Of a DNA stretch of 64,000 nt, positions 12,535 to 61,139 are shown piece after piece (within the stretch, counting starts at the first letter, position 1; every line of letters begins with the position of its first letter). The translations under genes and the position numbers were made by a program. The notes below the pieces were generated by a model. The model ran no database searches, was not told the origin of the DNA, and worked only from the letters and a program-made list of their open reading frames with translations. The DNA comes from Rosa chinensis (taxonomy: Eukaryota; Streptophyta; Magnoliopsida; Rosales; Rosaceae), in the NCBI RefSeq assembly GCF_002994745.2, contig NC_037094.1:2774001-2838000 (forward strand). The letters run 5' to 3'.

Positions 12535-14036
12535 CACTACTAGCAAAATAACAACACACACGGATTTACTGTAGTTAAAAGTCACAAATATTCGTGTAAA
12601 ATATAAATACTAACAGATAATGGTGTGAATTGAGCATAATTGGGCCCACAATAATTTATACAATAACAATATCAACGGAAATTCGTGTGAATAAACAACA
12701 GTAACAGATATTTGTGTAAAAACTAAAACAATTTCACACGGAAATCTGTGTGAAAATCAATTCACACGGATTTCTGTACGTATTATAAATTACTTTATTT
12801 CAAAATCATTAATTTTTTATATTATGTGAATTATAGAGGGACGGATTTCAATCAGATAAGTATTTGATACAGATTTATGTGTGAAATGAGTAACACACAA
12901 ATATCTGTGTGAAATGTTGACAGAGATATCCATGTAAAAAGAACAATTAGCTATAGAATTTCGTGTGAAAAAGGAGACTACACAGAATTTTGTGTAAATA
13001 ATCGACTGACAATTGACATGATAGTTAGTGATTACTGAGGTAAATACACACGGAAATCAATTGCAAACGTGTAAGTATTTCACACGGATTTCAGTGGTAA
13101 TTCTTCTTATAACTAGCAGATTGATCAAAGTTTTCCATTGTTCTTTCTGTTCTTCTGCTCATAGCTTTGGCCTCTCACCTCTCTTCTCTAAGATATTCTT
13201 CATATTCACATTAAGCAACGGCATCTGCTCCTACTAAGTGCTTCTTAAGCTATTTTTTTTATAGCTTTTGATCATCAAGTATCTCTTTAGATTAATCTTC
13301 TCACATAGTGATTTTGAATCTCTCCTTTTTTTTTTTTTAAAGATGGATTATGATGAAGACTCAGATCTGCAGGTTGATAAACAATATATTTGTTCAAGGT
13401 ATGTTCTTTCCCTCTTATTCCCCCAAACTCTCTATTATTTTTGTTACTGGATCTTAAATCTTATCAGCGTTTTGTAGTTTTATCTCTATCAATAGATTGT
13501 TTCAGATCCGTAAGTACCTGAAAGAGATTGCGAGATTTGGTTTATGCCTACTTATTTTGCAATTAGTATATGTATTTTACTTAGGTTTCATTCCTCTTGC
13601 TTGTAATTATCCTGGGAGACGTATTGGCTTAAGTCTCCCTCTCCCTCCTTGTATAATTTGTCTCATTTGATCAATAAATTGGGATTTTTGTCAAGAGTTC
13701 AAGATAAAAGAAATAGAAAATCTTGTTGGTTTTATCTGTCATGATTTGCAACAATAGAAGATCTTGCCTGAGAGCCATGGCATCTGGAGCCACTAACAGT
13801 GGTGTATGATGAGAGCCATGGCATAGCAAACAAGTAGGAATGATGGTGTACTAAGCCATGGCATCTGGATGATGAAACCTATGTGAGATGAGTATTAGCC
13901 CCCCCTCCAAATAGCACGGTAATTCAATTTGTGCATGTACCGTGGGTAAAAAGCCTTCACACACTGAAATCTATGTGAGAAAGTCTTATTTCACACAGAT
14001 TAAAATCTGTGGGTAATTGCTGTTTTGCTAGTAGTG
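12535..14036. mobile_element. Non-autonomous CACTA (En/Spm-type) transposon
   Basis: Terminal inverted repeats begin CACTACTAGCAAAA on the left and are matched by TTTTGCTAGTAGTG on the right. The flanks carry the 3-base duplication TTT expected for CACTA elements. Both subterminal regions are packed with direct and inverted copies of CACACGGATTT/AAATCTGTGTG words (for example 12560-12780, 12840-13100, 13985-14012). These are the kind of array bound by CACTA accessory proteins. The 1502-base body has no transposase. A short exon-like ORF (MDYDEDSDLQVDKQYICSR) at 13343-13399 is followed by a plausible GTATGT donor and may be a remnant of an element gene. Confidence 0.88.
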
Positions 14037-54390: not shown

Positions 54391-54742
54391 TCTCATTCAT
54401 CAATTCTGTTGTTTTTGGCCAATACCGAAGAACAATTACGTACAATACCTTGTCTTTGGCCAAGATCGCATGCTGTTGTTTTTCATTATCAAGTATGATT
54501 CTTAAGCACTTCTCGAACTGATGCAACTGAAAAATCATTTAAGCACATTTTTTTACGAATTTCAAGTCAGAAAACATTAAAAAATAATTTCTTCAAGGTT
54601 TCGTTATTGCGTCAATTGAAACAAGTTCTAAAAATAATCTTCTACTAATAGTGAGAATTGTGAGATTATGGCACAAGAAAAATTCAAAAAAAAAAAGAAG
54701 AAGAAGAGGTGCATGTTAACTTGATTGAGAATGTTCGGCATG
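54391..54742 (+). repeat. CXE flanking module, copy 3, left part
   Basis: From about 54455 it matches 31670-32000 and 36130-36440, then is interrupted by the CACTA element at 54743 and resumes at 60310. Confidence 0.8.
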
Positions 54743-55113
54743 CACTACTAAAAACAATTGCAATTGCTTCGGAAATTTGCGACGGAAACGTTTTCCGTCG
54801 CGAAAAGTCAACTTTTGCGACGGCATGTGCTACGACTATTTTACCGTCGCATCTCGAAGAATTTTTGCAACGGAAATAACCTTACCGTCGCATAATTATA
54901 CATCTATTGCGACGGTATGGTCACGCCGTCGCTTGTATAATTAAAAAAAAAAATCAGAAAACAAGACTATTCAATCCTTTAGATCAGATCTAGACCAAAA
55001 CTGATTTTCTTTCGCATGCCACTTCCTCCTCTCTCTCTCTCTCGCTTTATTCACCGATCTCAAAACTTAACCTAGCGATCCCTGGCCTCCTTTGAAGCAA
55101 GAGATTTGGTGAG

Positions 55114-55330
55114 AAGCGGAGCAGATCGAGCTTCATTGACGACATGACCGAGGAGGACGAGGAGGAGGAAGAGGAGGACGACGACGATGATGAATACGGC
55201 CCCTATCGTGGCGGCAGCGGCGGGAGTCGTAAGCGGAGCAAGAAGAGGCCCTTCGGTGGATTTTCTTGATCTCGAAGCGGTGGTCGATTCAGATGAGGAG
55301 GGTGAGGAGGAAGATACTATACGTTATCAA
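55114..55330 (+). pseudogene. Captured SPT5-like N-terminal fragment
   Basis: KRSRSSFIDDMTEEDEEEE, an acidic run, RKRSKKRP and, after a one-base frame change near 55262, FLDLEAVVDSDEEGEEED match the acidic N-terminus of plant SPT5 transcription elongation factors in order. The frame change and the missing KOW/NGN domains make it non-functional. Confidence 0.75.
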
Positions 55331-55483
55331 TAAGCCCCTTTGCCTTTTCTCCTTCTCTGTAAATTTAACCCCAAATTGCTTTTAACCCCAAAAAAAAAAA
55401 AAAAATCCTCAGTTGAGACAAATCCTAGTTTGAGAAACCAGGATTGATTAATGGTTCATTTTTCTGTGGTGGTTTGGTTTTAG

Positions 55484-56163
55484 GAGGTAGAGGAGCAGCT
55501 GCAATCCAAAGTCACAACAAAGTGTTTTTTTGATATAGACATTGGCGGTGAAGCTGTTGGTCTAGTTGTGATTGGTCTTTTTGGTGAGGTTGTTCCTAAA
55601 ACAGTAGAGAATTTCCGAGCTCTGTGCACAGGCAAGAAAACCCATCCTTGTCTGCTTTTCTATTGCTGCTCTTGTTGTGGTCATTTGCTGTAGGTTGAAA
55701 TTGATTGTGTTAGTGTTATCAATTATTTGCAGGAGAGAAAGGATATGGTTATAAAAGATGCTCGTTCCACCGCATCATTAAGGATTTTATGATCCAAGGA
55801 GGGGATTTCACTGAAGGAGATGTGAGTCTCCTTTTCGTTTTGATTTCTTCTTCTTCTGATCAATAGCGGGTTTTCTTGCTCAAAGAATCTAAATTGAATG
55901 GTTTTATTGGCTGCAGGGAACTGGAGGGATCAGTATCTATGGTTCCAAATTTGATGATGAGAGCTTTGCTTGTATGTCCTTGTATCTTGGTTTTGTTTTA
56001 AATTTGAAGTTTATATCAGATATGTGATTATCTGATCTCAACTGAAAGTCGTTTTTGCTTGTATGTGTTGTTTGCAGTGAAGCATGTTGGGCCTGGTGTA
56101 TTGAGCATGGCTAATGCAGGCCCTGGTACTAATGGGAGTCAGTTTTTAATCGGCACAGTAAAG
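55484..56163 (+). pseudogene. Captured cyclophilin fragment (CYP20-2-like)
   Basis: Four exons with intact-looking introns: 55484-55631, 55733-55821, 55917-55971 and 56078-56163. They encode [72 protein letters not shown] and [20 protein letters not shown]. This is the cyclophilin core up to the NGSQF motif, closest by eye to plastid CYP20-2. The catalytic FHR and QGGD are present, but the C-terminal third is missing. Retained introns show the capture was from genomic DNA. The first donor reads GC instead of GT. Confidence 0.85.
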
Positions 56164-56272
56164 GTAAGATATGGTTGCTGCATCACATATTCTTGAGATG
56201 CTTAAATTTGCACAATATTTTCTTCCAACCCCAGATGTATTGTATGTTTATGAACTGAGCAAATCTTTTTAG

Positions 56273-56339
56273 GAAAATGTGAAGACAAATCCTCAATTGC
56301 TGTATGAATCCAAGTTGTATAGGATCCTACAAGGAGGAA
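56273..56339 (+). pseudogene. Captured casein kinase 1-like exon
   Basis: One exon between TTTTAG and GTATGT encodes ENVKTNPQLLYESKLYRILQ plus GG. Casein kinase 1 kinases have ENVKTKHPQLLYESKLYRIL here, just after the ATP-binding Lys. One codon is missing relative to that consensus. Nothing else of the kinase is present. Confidence 0.75.
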
Positions 56340-56423
56340 GTATGTAATTTTCAGTTGATTAGTAGTTTTGTTATACAGAGTTTTACACTATTGGTTTCAA
56401 TGGCTTACAAGTTTTTGCTGCCA

Positions 56424-58469
56424 GGTTGACTGATCAGCAAGCTTTCCAAATTTCAAGTAAGTTCCTCAATTCATTTCAGGGAATTATAATTTAAACAGGT
56501 CCATGGATTTGTGAATAACCATTGAACTTTGACAGAGATGCCTGGAGTTGTTTCGGTTTTTCCCAACTCGAAAAGGAGTTTGCACACCACTCATTCTTGG
56601 GATTTCATGGGTCTTTTGGGTGAACAGACCTTGGAGGTTTCCGGCTTTAACATCAAGAATTAAGTAAATGTCATTGTCGGTTTCATTGATACTGGTAAGC
56701 ACTAATCACTCAAACTGTACTTTGCTCTTTCTTTGGGGGATTTGTATTATACTATTAAGGTATAAAACATGCCACGAGTTGTTGTTATCTGTATTCACAT
56801 GAACATGCCATAATTTGTTGCTTTATGTATGCTTGAACATGTGCTTGCCTCTGGTTTTTTTGTTATGGACTGTTTATTACATTAATGATTAAAGGGAAAA
56901 AGATATTGCTTTCTCAATTGTGTTGACCGCCTAATCAATCACTACACCATAAAAGTATGCATATTTTTATTAAACAATCTCAGAAGTGATCAAAACATAA
57001 TGTAACATTCATTGAAATACACAAGCATTACATTTTCTCATTCTTTTCCTTTATAAATGAAAAAAGTCCTCAACAGAACAAAACTGATCTATAACTTCTC
57101 CTCCATAGCAGCATCCAAAACTTACGTGTCTCTAAACTGCAAAAACATGATATTGAAAGCTTATTCAAATATTATAATAAACTGACACAATTAGCAGAAA
57201 ATATATATTTCAAACAAAGTATCACATCTTATTGACCTTAAAATATATTCTTACCTACAAGTATAGTGTTAACTTTTTCATGAGCACAATCATAGAAGTT
57301 GGCATCAGATACACACCTACATAAAAACACATCCGAACTCTTTATGATGTATTATCAAACTATTCTTCGCGTTAGATTAAACATGAAATTGTTTACGTGA
57401 ATGCAAAATTGACATGCCACTACTTAAATAATCTACCAAAGCAAAAAGCATAAGAAAGTTTGAAGATTCTTAATATTTGTGATTAGTGCTGAACCAACTG
57501 TAAAAAATGAAAAAGAAAAAATAAAAATAAAAGCATGTAAAGAAATAAACTTACTTAGATCAACATAAATAATCCTCTCCTGCAATTAGGAACTGTGGAT
57601 TGCAGAGGTTGTGAGAACCTTGTTAAATTTACCTTCCCTGTTCCTAAAGCGAGAGAAATCAAAACAGTTGCATGACCAGACAAAGATATAGATAAAGATA
57701 AAGAAAGAGAAAAAGAAAAAAAACAAGAAAAGAAATAGCAGATACTAGCTATGAACTAGACAAACTAATACCTTACCTCATCAAGTATGAATGACTCAGG
57801 CATAGTATGGTCAGTAACCTCAACCTCAATATCTTTCTCCTACAAACATCAAAAGATGCAAGTAAGCTAATTAGCTATAAAGAGTCACCTAAAAATTGAT
57901 ACTCTTTTGAAATTGTATTTACAGGAAGCCATTCAACCTAACTTGTATCCCCTATCAGAAACCAATTTTCAATGTACGGTTTTAATTTAACAGCGTTTAA
58001 AAAGTATAAACGCTACCAAATAGTACAGATAATACAATCCATAGCATTTGCTGAAAAAACGCTATAGTGAAGTGCTATAAATATAACTTTTTCTTGTAGT
58101 GAATGCAGGAATTTGGCCTGAATCTCCAAGTTTTAATGATGACAACATGCCTCCAGTGCCAGCTAGATGGAAGGGGGTTTGTCAATCAGGAGAGGCATTC
58201 AATGCTTCAACTTGCAACAGGTTCCCATCATGGCTTTGTATTGAGTGTTTAGATTGTTTGAACAAAAATTATTGACTGGTAATCTCAAACTGATTATAAC
58301 TTTTTTCAATAGAAAAGTGATTGGGGCTACTATAAGTCCGGTTATGAAGCCGAGGAAGATTCAGCGGACACAGTGGCATTCAGTTCTCCAAGGGACAGTG
58401 CCGGTCATGGCAGCCACACAGCCTCTATAGCTGCTGGTCGTTATGTGTCAAACATGACTTATAAGGGCT
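56424..58469 (+). pseudogene. Captured subtilase (S8 protease) fragment
   Basis: Exons at about 56424-56457 (LTDQQAFQIS), 56536-56694 (MPGVVSVFPNSKRSLHTTHS..VIVGFIDTG), 58109-58220 ([20 protein letters not shown]..) and 58313-58469 (..SPRDSAGHGSHTASIAAGRY). They cover the end of the inhibitory prodomain and the S8 Asp (DTG) and His (GHGSHT) motifs. The catalytic Ser half is absent. A TAA replaces a Gln codon after GFNIKN, and a small deletion shifts frame after KVIGA. The intron between exons two and three is interrupted by a nested CACTA-type element. Confidence 0.88.
56940..58101. mobile_element. Nested CACTA-type element
   Basis: Ends CACTACACCATAAAAG and CTTTTTCTTGTAGTG are imperfect inverted repeats beginning with CACTA, flanked by the 3-base duplication AAT (56937-56939 and 58102-58104). 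It lies at the 3' end of the captured subtilase intron, leaving the acceptor AATGCAG just outside. The subterminal region has AACGCTATAGTGAAGTGCTATAA-like words. No transposase; two splice-like fragments near 57585-57840 are unidentified. Confidence 0.75.
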
Positions 58470-58581
58470 GTAGCCACCTTTGGTTGATTTAACAGAAATC
58501 CAAATTCTTACAAGTTGTTTTAAATGTCATCTTACTTTTCCTTTTCCTTTATAATGTTGAACAATGATCTTGGATCTACAG

Positions 58582-59121
58582 CTCAAGGCATGGCTTGAGG
58601 ATGGAAAAGATATCCGTCTAGGGGACTGGAAAGCTGCTGATGTCGAGATCCTGAATACCTTTCAATTGCTAACAGCTAAGCCTGTTGTTTACTTGGTAAG
58701 TTTAACTCTTGCATGGAATTCGAACAGACAATCATTGCTATACTTGTAGAAAGAAAATGTGATGAAACTTGTACAGAATTATATTCACCAAAATCCCTAA
58801 GGCTTGACTGCTAGTATGTAGGACCCTTATACTATGAATCTCTTTTTCATTCGTCCTTTTTTTTCTTTTGCCTTCTCTCTTTAATAAGTTTAGAGTATTA
58901 AGTCTTCAAGTATGTTAAGAGTTTTATTTAATAATTGTGTTTGAATTCACATATCTAGGCTTGCTCTGTTTACATGAGCTCCTTTCCATGACCTTCATGT
59001 GAGTCTAAAATACTATTACCTTTGGCAGGTGAAATGCTGGCAAATTAGGCGGCTTTCAAAGGCTCCTCAAGCTGCAGGGACCATCCATACTGATTTTGAG
59101 AGAGGATTCATTTGTGCTGAG
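58582..59121 (+). pseudogene. Captured OLA1/YchF (Obg-like ATPase) fragment
   Basis: Two exons. 58582-58695 encodes LKAWLEDGKDIRLGDWKAAD and VEILNTFQLLTAKPVVYLV. 59029-59121 encodes [20 protein letters not shown] and [11 protein letters not shown]. Both match Obg-like ATPase 1, the first from the region before the NMNE motif and the second from the TGS domain. The exons that should lie between them are missing, as are the P-loop half and the C-terminus. A short tandem duplication of ATTTTGAGAGAGGATTCATT follows at 59160. Confidence 0.85.
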
Positions 59122-59673
59122 GTAGCTTCTAGCTTACATGGCAGTTTACTAACTTCCATTTTGAGAGAGGATTCATTTGTGCGGCTTTCTCCTGTTTTTA
59201 ATTTCACCTATTTATGGCAGTTTACTAACTTCCATGTTTCTGCATCCTCTTTATTTCCTTTGCTGTTATCAACTTATTGTGTTTGTTTCCTTCCACTTTT
59301 ACGATTTTCAACATTAACACCACATTTTACAATAGATTTTATCTTCTTAAATTATTTCATGCTTCCTTAAAATATAAGACAAGGAATTAATTAGAAGGGT
59401 TTCAGCTTTATAAGTTTTTTCCTCTACATGATAGTAGGATATTGGTTTTGATTGATAGTGTTTTCTGCAAAACTTATATTTTAATATGCTCTATATTTCT
59501 GTTACTTTTTGTGATGCAAGCTCTTTGCTAAAGGTTTAGTCTTTTTCTATAGTTCTAGACTACTTCGAATATGCTCTATATTTCTATATGCTCGCATAAT
59601 TCTTTGTGCAAGATGGAAACCCCTTGATTTTAACCCAAATTGTTAAATTTTTGGTTGTGGCTTTTGTGTGCAG

Positions 59674-59850
59674 GACTCTTATGAGTATCTATTTAAAGAG
59701 CTGAGCAAGTACAAATGGATCATTCTCAGGCTATAATTAAAGAGTCGGTGTATGAAAAGCAATTGGATAGGCAAGGAATGGATGACTTGATGAAGCAAGA
59801 TGAGCTAGAAGTTGAAAGAAAGTTGAGAAAGCTTTGGCTGATCTTTGTTT
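59674..59850 (+). other. Unidentified exon-like segment in the Pack-CACTA
   Basis: After a good acceptor (TGTGCAG) the sequence reads DSYEYLFKELSKYKWIILRL to a stop. In another frame it reads DHSQAIIKESVYEKQLDRQG followed by MDDLMKQDELEVERKLRK. It looks coding-derived with a frame change but I do not recognise the parent. It could be a sixth captured gene or a remnant of an element gene. Confidence 0.4.
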
Positions 59851-60309
59851 TTTAACAACCTTTGGTTGGTCTGAGAATTGTGATTGTTGGTGGGTTATAG
59901 ATGTGATGGGTTTCATAATATTTTTCAATTTATGATATTTGCTGCAGATGGTACTAGCTTTGGTGTGCAATTCACACCATTTTTTTTTTATAAATGAAAT
60001 ATTCTTTTGCGACGGCAACAGTTTTCCGTCGCAAAACCAATTTTTTTTTATAAATGAAATATTATTTTGCGACGGCAAAGTATCCGTCGCAAATAGTTTA
60101 GCCATTGCGACGGCAACAGTTTTCCGTCGCAAATACTTTTTGCGACGGCATTTTACCGTCGCAAATGGATTTTGTGACGCCACCTATTGCAACGCCAACA
60201 TTTCCGTCGCAAAAGGCTCAATTTTCCGTCGCGAAAAGTTTTTTCCGTCGCAAAAGCCCATTTTGCCGTCGCAAAATAGGCGTCGCAAAAGCAATTTTTT
60301 TTAGTAGTG

Positions 60310-60465
60310 ATGCTTCGTAACATTCTAAATCTTGTTAACACTTTTTTTTGACATGTCCTCTTTGTACTTTTATTTGTCAGCTTAACCAGGTTTTCTTTTT
60401 CAACATATTTAAACACAGAATTAGTGGCATCCTAAGAACTGTGAAGCTCGCTTGTGTCAGTGTTG
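60310..60465 (+). repeat. CXE flanking module, copy 3, right part
   Basis: ATGCTTCGTAACATTCTAAA and the following 'cttgttaacac...ttttttgacatg' resume the module interrupted at 54742 and match 32005-32130 and 36441-36580. Confidence 0.8.
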
Positions 60466-61139
60466 GATCAAAATCCATAAAAAAAGAAAAGAAAAAAAAA
60501 GAGGTATTTCGATCCAAGTCATTTTTATTATATAAAATCCAAGTCCGCACATCTTTTCTTATTACTTGCGGTCCATTTACTTTTTCTAGTAGTCTATTTT
60601 ACCCTTGCAACCAAATAAGGTAAATAATTCAAATTCACTAATTTTTTTTTTTGATAAAAAAATTCACTAATTGAATCACAATTTTAGCTCAAATCTAAAT
60701 TTTAAATTTTAAATTCAAAATCAACAATTCATCAATGAATAATTTTCAAACATTGAATTTATTTCCTATGAATTCAATATACCTAAAATGTAGGTTTAGA
60801 AATATCGAATACTTATATACCTATATTATAGGATGAAAAATATTAAAACAAAAATTCAAATATAAAATATGTACTTATATACCTACATTATAGGTATTTA
60901 AAGATGTATAGTAGAGATTCGATCCGCCTATACATACAAAGGAACAAAAATTCAAATATAAAAATATCGAATACTTATATACCTACATTATAGGTATTTA
61001 AAAGAGATTTGATCTACCTATACATATGAAGGAACAAAAATTCAAACATAAAAATGCCGAATACTTGTATGCCCACATTATAGGTTTAAAGATACCTATC
61101 AAGTAGTCATATCATTTCTCAATAAGACTCTAAAATGGG
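60466..61139. repeat. AT-rich tandem repeats
   Basis: From about 60800 to 61095 a ~90-100-base unit with ATACTTATATACCTACATTA, TAGGTATTTAAA and GGAACAAAAATTCAAA recurs three to four times with drift. The flanking 300 bases are AT-rich with no gene. Confidence 0.7.

Follow-up and report, generated by a model that had tools for sequence, protein, structure and literature searches.

A CACTA element of Rosa chinensis that carries fragments of five host genes in layers of different divergence

The closest described system to the locus reported here is Tgm-Express1, which Zabala and Vodkin (2007) described from the wp allele of soybean: a CACTA element of 5.7 kb whose fragments of five genes are, according to that report, spliced into chimeric transcripts (PMC1947982). 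Pack-TYPE elements of Arabidopsis, rice and maize, Pack-CACTA among them, are described as non-autonomous, with conserved ends and host DNA inside that can come from several loci per element; in maize they often hold DNA of several loci, Pack-CACTA most of all, and fusion of neighboring insertions has been proposed as their origin (PMC8903248). Maize Helitrons are reported to gain several gene fragments successively over repeated transpositions (PMC3288121). We analyzed 64,000 nucleotides of R. chinensis (NC_037094.1, positions 2,774,001 to 2,838,000; hereafter the window, whose coordinates are used below), in which positions 54743-60309 hold a complete element of the CACTA superfamily. This element very probably is a non-autonomous, gene-capturing (Pack-type) CACTA element with cargo that was added stepwise and with ends of two sublineages. 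Like Tgm-Express1, it is of similar size and contains exon and intron pieces from five unrelated genes of its host; unlike it, the host and the genes are different, and the rose cargo is known here from DNA alone, whereas that of Tgm-Express1 was shown to be spliced (PMC1947982). An initial sequence-only reading of the window had considered this many sources in 5.6 kb unusual, which does not stand beside the five sources that Tgm-Express1 is reported to hold and the frequently multi-locus elements described for maize. The kind and number of captures are already known; the layered history and a possible sense bias of the cargo are the interesting parts.

The element begins with CACTACTAAAAACAATTGC at 54743 and finishes at 60309 with the inverted counterpart, AGCAATTTTTTTTAGTAGTG. 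Its terminal inverted repeats, both beginning CACTACTAAAAA, are 36 nt long and 78% complementary, as is characteristic of CACTA ends, and a 3-bp target-site duplication of ATG flanks the element on the left (54740..54742) and on the right (60310..60312). The 5' terminal inverted repeat with subterminal GCGACGG repeats (54743..54992, + strand) represents the AATTG subtype of 5' end. All 14 occurrences of TTGCGACGG in the 64-kb window lie within the two ends of the element (expected number, 0.08), and GCGACGG/CCGTCGC was counted 7 times in the first 250 bp, 12 times in the last 350 bp and 0 times in between. Around this motif, both ends carry subterminal repeat families of 14-29 bp; CACTA elements are described as having subterminal repeats, 10-20 bp long, that occur in either orientation (PMC8978399). 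A Pfam search of the element in all frames detected no transposase domain at E 0.01, and it is therefore taken as non-autonomous. As in Pack-CACTA elements, host-gene fragments lie between the ends, and matching genes are present elsewhere in the genome.

Matching genes were sought in the whole assembly (515,083,735 bases in 53 contigs, of which the seven large ones, C1-C7, make up approximately 504 Mb); loci were called genes from their series of exons, not from annotation, and donors are the best match within this one assembly. Other elements and loci are referred to by L numbers. From left to right the cargo consists of an SPT5-like piece, a casein kinase 1 (CK1) upstream piece, a cyclophilin fragment, a CK1 exon, a subtilase fragment and an OLA1/YchF fragment, followed by a 3' module. 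The acidic SPT5-like stretch (55109..55307; MTEEDEEEEEEDDDDDEYGPYRGG) lies in a 5' module common to the sister elements L015-L018 and is 76% identical over 201 bp to an SPT5-type gene, L035 (C6:52.91 Mb), the protein of which matches SPT5 among solved structures; in the sister element L016, Spt5_N was detected at E 4e-4, below its cut-off. The CK1 upstream piece (55324..55405), labeled 5' untranslated region by eye from its position ahead of the first coding exon, is 89% identical to a CK1-type gene at C2:6.93 Mb, and the CK1 exon (ENVKTNPQLLYESKLYRILQGG) with flanking intron (56266..56415) matches the same gene at the DNA level. The short CK1 piece, 91% identical to this gene, gave no Pfam family; the protein of the gene matches casein kinase I among solved structures. 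Between the two CK1 pieces, four exons and introns of cyclophilin (55426..56269; Pro_isomerase, E 1.8e-28) match a gene at C3:32.29 Mb whose protein is closest to chloroplast PnsL5 among solved structures, a type of cyclophilin that we take to be the one named CYP20-2. The subtilase fragment is in two parts (56400..56939 and 58102..58467), the alignment of the left part overlapping the CK1 piece by 16 bases, and is 97.6-98.1% identical to a gene at C2:9.38 Mb; the protein of that gene matches cucumisin and other plant subtilisin-like proteases among solved structures. Relative to the gene, the left part has a nonsense change and the right part a 4-bp deletion. Peptidase_S8 was detected at E 0.0057, below the cut-off, and searches with the short pieces gave no Pfam family for the first two subtilase exons. 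The OLA1/YchF fragment (58475..59139; YchF-GTPase_C, E 8.9e-12) is collinear with a gene at C5:11.29 Mb except for three internal deletions that reduce 2579 bp of the gene to 665 bp.

All five gene pieces are on the + strand and retain their introns, and matching genes were found for each of them in the element's own genome. Since the reading frames of these genes run on past the captured portion and the pieces keep introns, capture was at the DNA level. The matching genes are unlinked, with two on C2 approximately 2.5 Mb apart and one each on C3, C5 and C6, and an origin of the pieces from a single locus is ruled out. The sequence-only reading had proposed CACTA ends with an ATG duplication and same-strand pieces of SPT5-, cyclophilin-, CK1-, subtilase- and OLA1/YchF-like genes, captured as DNA with their introns from at least five unrelated sources; the ends, the pieces and their orientation, and the manner of capture all agree with what was found.

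The same package is present at three further places, making four near-identical copies on three chromosome-size contigs. Besides the window element, at C7:2.83 Mb, there is one near-complete copy at C2:79.0 Mb and another at C3:38.6 Mb; the copy at C2:52.33 Mb lacks the segment equivalent to 57161-58491. The flanks differ among the copies, and three of the four have a target duplication of their own (ATG in the window, CAA for the C3 copy and TTT for the copy at C2:52.33 Mb), so the package moved as a whole; past movement together with cargo, a property of Pack-CACTA elements, is thus seen at three places. The copies differ pairwise at 13-24 sites (0.23-0.57%, substitutions only). With a substitution rate near 7e-9 per site per year, the spread of the copies would be a few hundred thousand years old. 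The ends recur at other loci: a search for exact 5' ends of the family gave 48, with all seven large contigs represented, compared with 0 for the reversed pattern. Neither of the two outcomes that the sequence-only reading had named as refuting it, collinearity of the pieces with one host locus and absence of the same end repeats from other loci, was encountered. For 21 of the 48, one of 27 3' ends lies within 12 kb, giving sizes of 780-6494 bp; a 28th 3' end, that of the C2:79.0 Mb copy with its altered ends, was excluded, and one 3' end is counted twice, serving both the inner and the outer unit of a composite. The 27 5' ends left without a partner are uninformative, as the 3' ends come from the best 40 of 419 candidates. 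Among 18 family elements whose two outer ends were located, 17 have identical 3-bp flanks. L016 and L018, both among the 17, share their flanks and represent a single insertion, present on a chromosome and on an unplaced contig; L019 and L020 are probably another such case. Nothing was found in favor of an assembly artefact or a chance resemblance, and four copies that differ in location and in flanks, together with exact family ends on every large contig, leave such an explanation with practically no chance of being correct.

The pieces differ in their divergence from the matching genes. SPT5 differs by approximately 24%, CK1 by 6.7% (10/149 substitutions; 95% interval 3.3-12.0), cyclophilin by 3.2% (27/839; 2.1-4.7), subtilase by 1.5% (14/904; 0.9-2.6) and OLA1 by 1.0% (6/609; 0.4-2.1). 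Because divergence varies by layer and position, the cargo was added stepwise. SPT5 and CK1 are common to the sister elements L015-L018. The CK1 and cyclophilin intervals overlap; cyclophilin occupies the exact place of a 524-bp stretch of L016 that aligns almost completely to the CK1 gene, so cyclophilin entered after CK1. Divergence does not order subtilase and OLA1, since their intervals overlap. The order of events is therefore SPT5, CK1, cyclophilin inside CK1, subtilase and OLA1 (in either order), a nested element described below, and spread of the whole package.

Several observations weigh against a simple account of stepwise loading and transposition. The CK1 figure comes from only 149 sites, and the intervals for subtilase and OLA1 are not separate. 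No intermediate with cyclophilin and without subtilase and OLA1 was found among the best 40 of 419 candidates; a further cyclophilin match of 75 bp (92%) is present at C4:2145352-2145426. The true donors could differ from the best matching genes, and the SPT5 match is too diverged to tell. In addition, the first bases of the copy at C2:79.0 Mb (L002; C2:78995462-79001025) are altered at either end, and this copy lacks a target duplication.

The two parts of the subtilase fragment are separated by 1162 bp (56940-58101) with CACTACA ends. At this site the subtilase gene reads CCTAATCAATGCAGG without an insert, and in the element AAT is present on both sides of the insert; the insert is therefore a second CACTA element that landed in the subtilase intron, and it entered after the subtilase had been captured. 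It is present in all four copies, the deleted copy retaining its left 221 bp, so it arrived before the spread. Where a single CACTA element had been proposed for the interval, the single outer element holds, and the interior has to be divided between two elements, one nested in the other. Likewise, the one unidentified segment of that reading is mainly the nested element; a separate gene-like stretch lies at approximately 59591-59799, within the 3' module. This stretch is repetitive, with at least eight further loci at 81-85% identity among the best 40 of 120 candidates, and no Pfam family was found for 59676-59855 in spite of its recurrence in the genome. A 3.2-kb relative of the nested element was observed at C7:14.70 Mb (L028, 621-3847) with AAA on both sides.

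The right end of the outer element has a different source from the left. The 3' module (59247..60309, + strand), which includes the gene-like stretch and the 3' terminal repeats, belongs to the sublineage of L021 and L022; these last 1063 bp are 95.5-95.6% identical to the two elements by blastn, with 4.1% (43/1060) substitutions relative to L021 and 4.0% relative to L022. AATTG and ATTCG are the main subtypes among the 48 exact 5' ends. In the window element the AATTG end is combined with the SPT5/CK1 module, whereas L021 and L022 have the ATTCG end; the left and right ends of the window element derive from different sublineages. A second hybrid, L042 (C3:21327271-21332351), combines an L026-like left part (96.8-98.2% identity for the most part, 88.0% over the first 1.46 kb) with a right part like that of L015 and L017 (96-97%). 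Two composites carry a second 5' terminus inside: L024+L043 (C5:76888909-76893883; 4975 bp, flanks ACC/ACC) and L025 737-6278 (C4:36.46 Mb; 5542 bp, flanks CAT/CAT). They share their right 2.57 kb at 96.8% and differ in their left halves. Considered by themselves, the inner units, of 780 and 784 bp, lack matching flanks, and in both composites the right end of one element serves the larger unit, as predicted by the fusion model described for Pack elements (PMC8903248).

In that model of Catoni et al. (2019), as set out by Gisby and Catoni (2022; PMC8903248), two related elements insert near each other on either side of host DNA, lose their inner ends and are then mobilized by the outer ends as a single element. 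The hybrid ends of the window element and of L042 and the composites that retain an internal 5' terminus are what such fusion would leave behind. Within the cargo, however, subtilase (C2) and OLA1 (C5) come from unlinked loci and adjoin with only 7 bases between them that match neither gene, and the three OLA1 deletions, with local duplications at the OLA1 edge, resemble break repair. Capture purely by fusion is accordingly a possible route that we do not favor.

TTTT is shared at the cyclophilin/CK1 junction and TTT at the CK1/subtilase junction, approximately 20 bases are unassigned between the first CK1 piece and cyclophilin, and the patch between OLA1 and the 3' module (59140..59246) is associated with 25-bp repeats at 59093/59158 and 59138/59214. 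We infer that these features are marks of break repair that copied nearby templates. A gap-filling model has been proposed for animal Pack-TIRs (PMC8277862), and template switching during gap repair, following excision or a stalled fork, could in principle account for capture by itself; the replacement of an internal CK1 stretch by cyclophilin, the TTTT at one junction, the filler at another and the duplicated patch would all fit. Gap repair alone does not explain why the composites have internal termini or how the right kilobase came to be that of another sublineage, and we consider it unlikely to be the whole explanation. Fusion and break repair are not mutually exclusive.

The reading that we prefer, a Pack-type CACTA element loaded in steps, would draw on both processes. 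Transposase supplied from elsewhere would move the element; breaks within it, or between two nearby elements, would be repaired with template jumps, by which new cargo may enter; and the 5' end of one element and the 3' end of another may at times move together as a single unit. Any effect of the cargo would be exerted through putative sense chimeric transcripts or small RNAs.

The orientation of the cargo was assessed with Pfam scans in all frames and on both strands of seven elements (the window element, L015, L016, L021, L023, L026 and L030), chosen for resemblance to the window element, with genes common to several elements counted once. The plus strands gave PCO_ADO, Spt5_N, ECH_2, Aconitase, Ribosomal_S8, DNA_photolyase, Pkinase, Pro_isomerase and YchF-GTPase_C, of which Spt5_N and ECH_2 were below their cut-offs. 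The single match on the minus strands was Questin_oxidase in L015 (E 3.6e-4), also below its cut-off. Captured genes in sense thus number 11 (nine by Pfam, with CK1 and subtilase added by DNA match) versus 0 or 1 in antisense, which corresponds to p 0.001 for 11/11 and p 0.006 for 11/12 when the doubtful Questin_oxidase is counted. The scans missed the CK1 and subtilase exons and are insensitive, equally so on both strands. In an eighth element, no Pfam family was found on either strand of the internal part of L041 at E below 0.01; a Rab-like piece in L041 and a gene-like piece in L016 without a Pfam match, both recognized by eye, were left out of the count. We suggest only tentatively that cargo orientation is non-random in this family, either because transcription that starts at the 5' end is linked to capture or because elements with antisense cargo are removed. 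Such removal might act, for example, via double-stranded RNA formed with the parent gene. If the bias is true, the family would be a natural assembly line for sense, spliceable chimeric transcripts, and if valid across the whole family, it would bear on which captures survive.

With every piece in sense and the introns kept, we also considered that the cargo might work as a selected chimeric gene or give rise to small RNAs directed at the parent genes; there is a precedent in the splicing of Tgm-Express1 fragments into chimeric transcripts, as reported (PMC1947982). Coding constraint, however, was not seen. The cyclophilin exons differ from the gene at 12/378 sites and its introns at 15/461, with eight amino acid changes and three silent ones, and the subtilase carries the stop and the 4-bp deletion described above; a retained coding unit is unsupported for both. 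OLA1 (0/207 differences in exons, 5/288 in introns) and the CK1 exon (2/68) have too few differences to judge. Judged from these comparisons, the cargo looks like decaying passengers without visible coding constraint, and a selected function is improbable.

Capture of gene pieces by DNA transposons is debated between fusion of neighboring elements and repair with template jumps. In rose, one genome holds the matching genes, less-loaded elements, hybrids, composites and recent copies of the element with the largest load among those seen, so the order and edges of capture can be read within the family and compared across other roses. Relative to Tgm-Express1 as reported, the rose case adds near-identical copies, matching genes, sister elements and layered divergence in one genome (PMC1947982). 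It differs from the Pack-TYPE elements described in PMC8903248 in having more dated layers in one element, with internal-5'-terminus composites and half-swapped elements side by side. Maize Helitrons, for which successive gains are also described, are of another transposon class and mechanism (PMC3288121). We found no publication that treats this rose CACTA family or a strand preference of CACTA cargo in literature that covers few of the subscription journals.

Three minor features were also observed. L040 and L041 (C6:26.98 Mb and C3:18.73 Mb) are family elements that contain a unit of approximately 520 bp in tandem repeat in their left half. Within the window, a second complete CACTA-type element of 1502 bp is located at 12535-14036, with ends CACTACTAGCAAAA and TTT on both sides. 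To the right of the gene-carrying element, a tandem array at 60913-61085 has a period of 90, with 1.9 copies and 86% matches.

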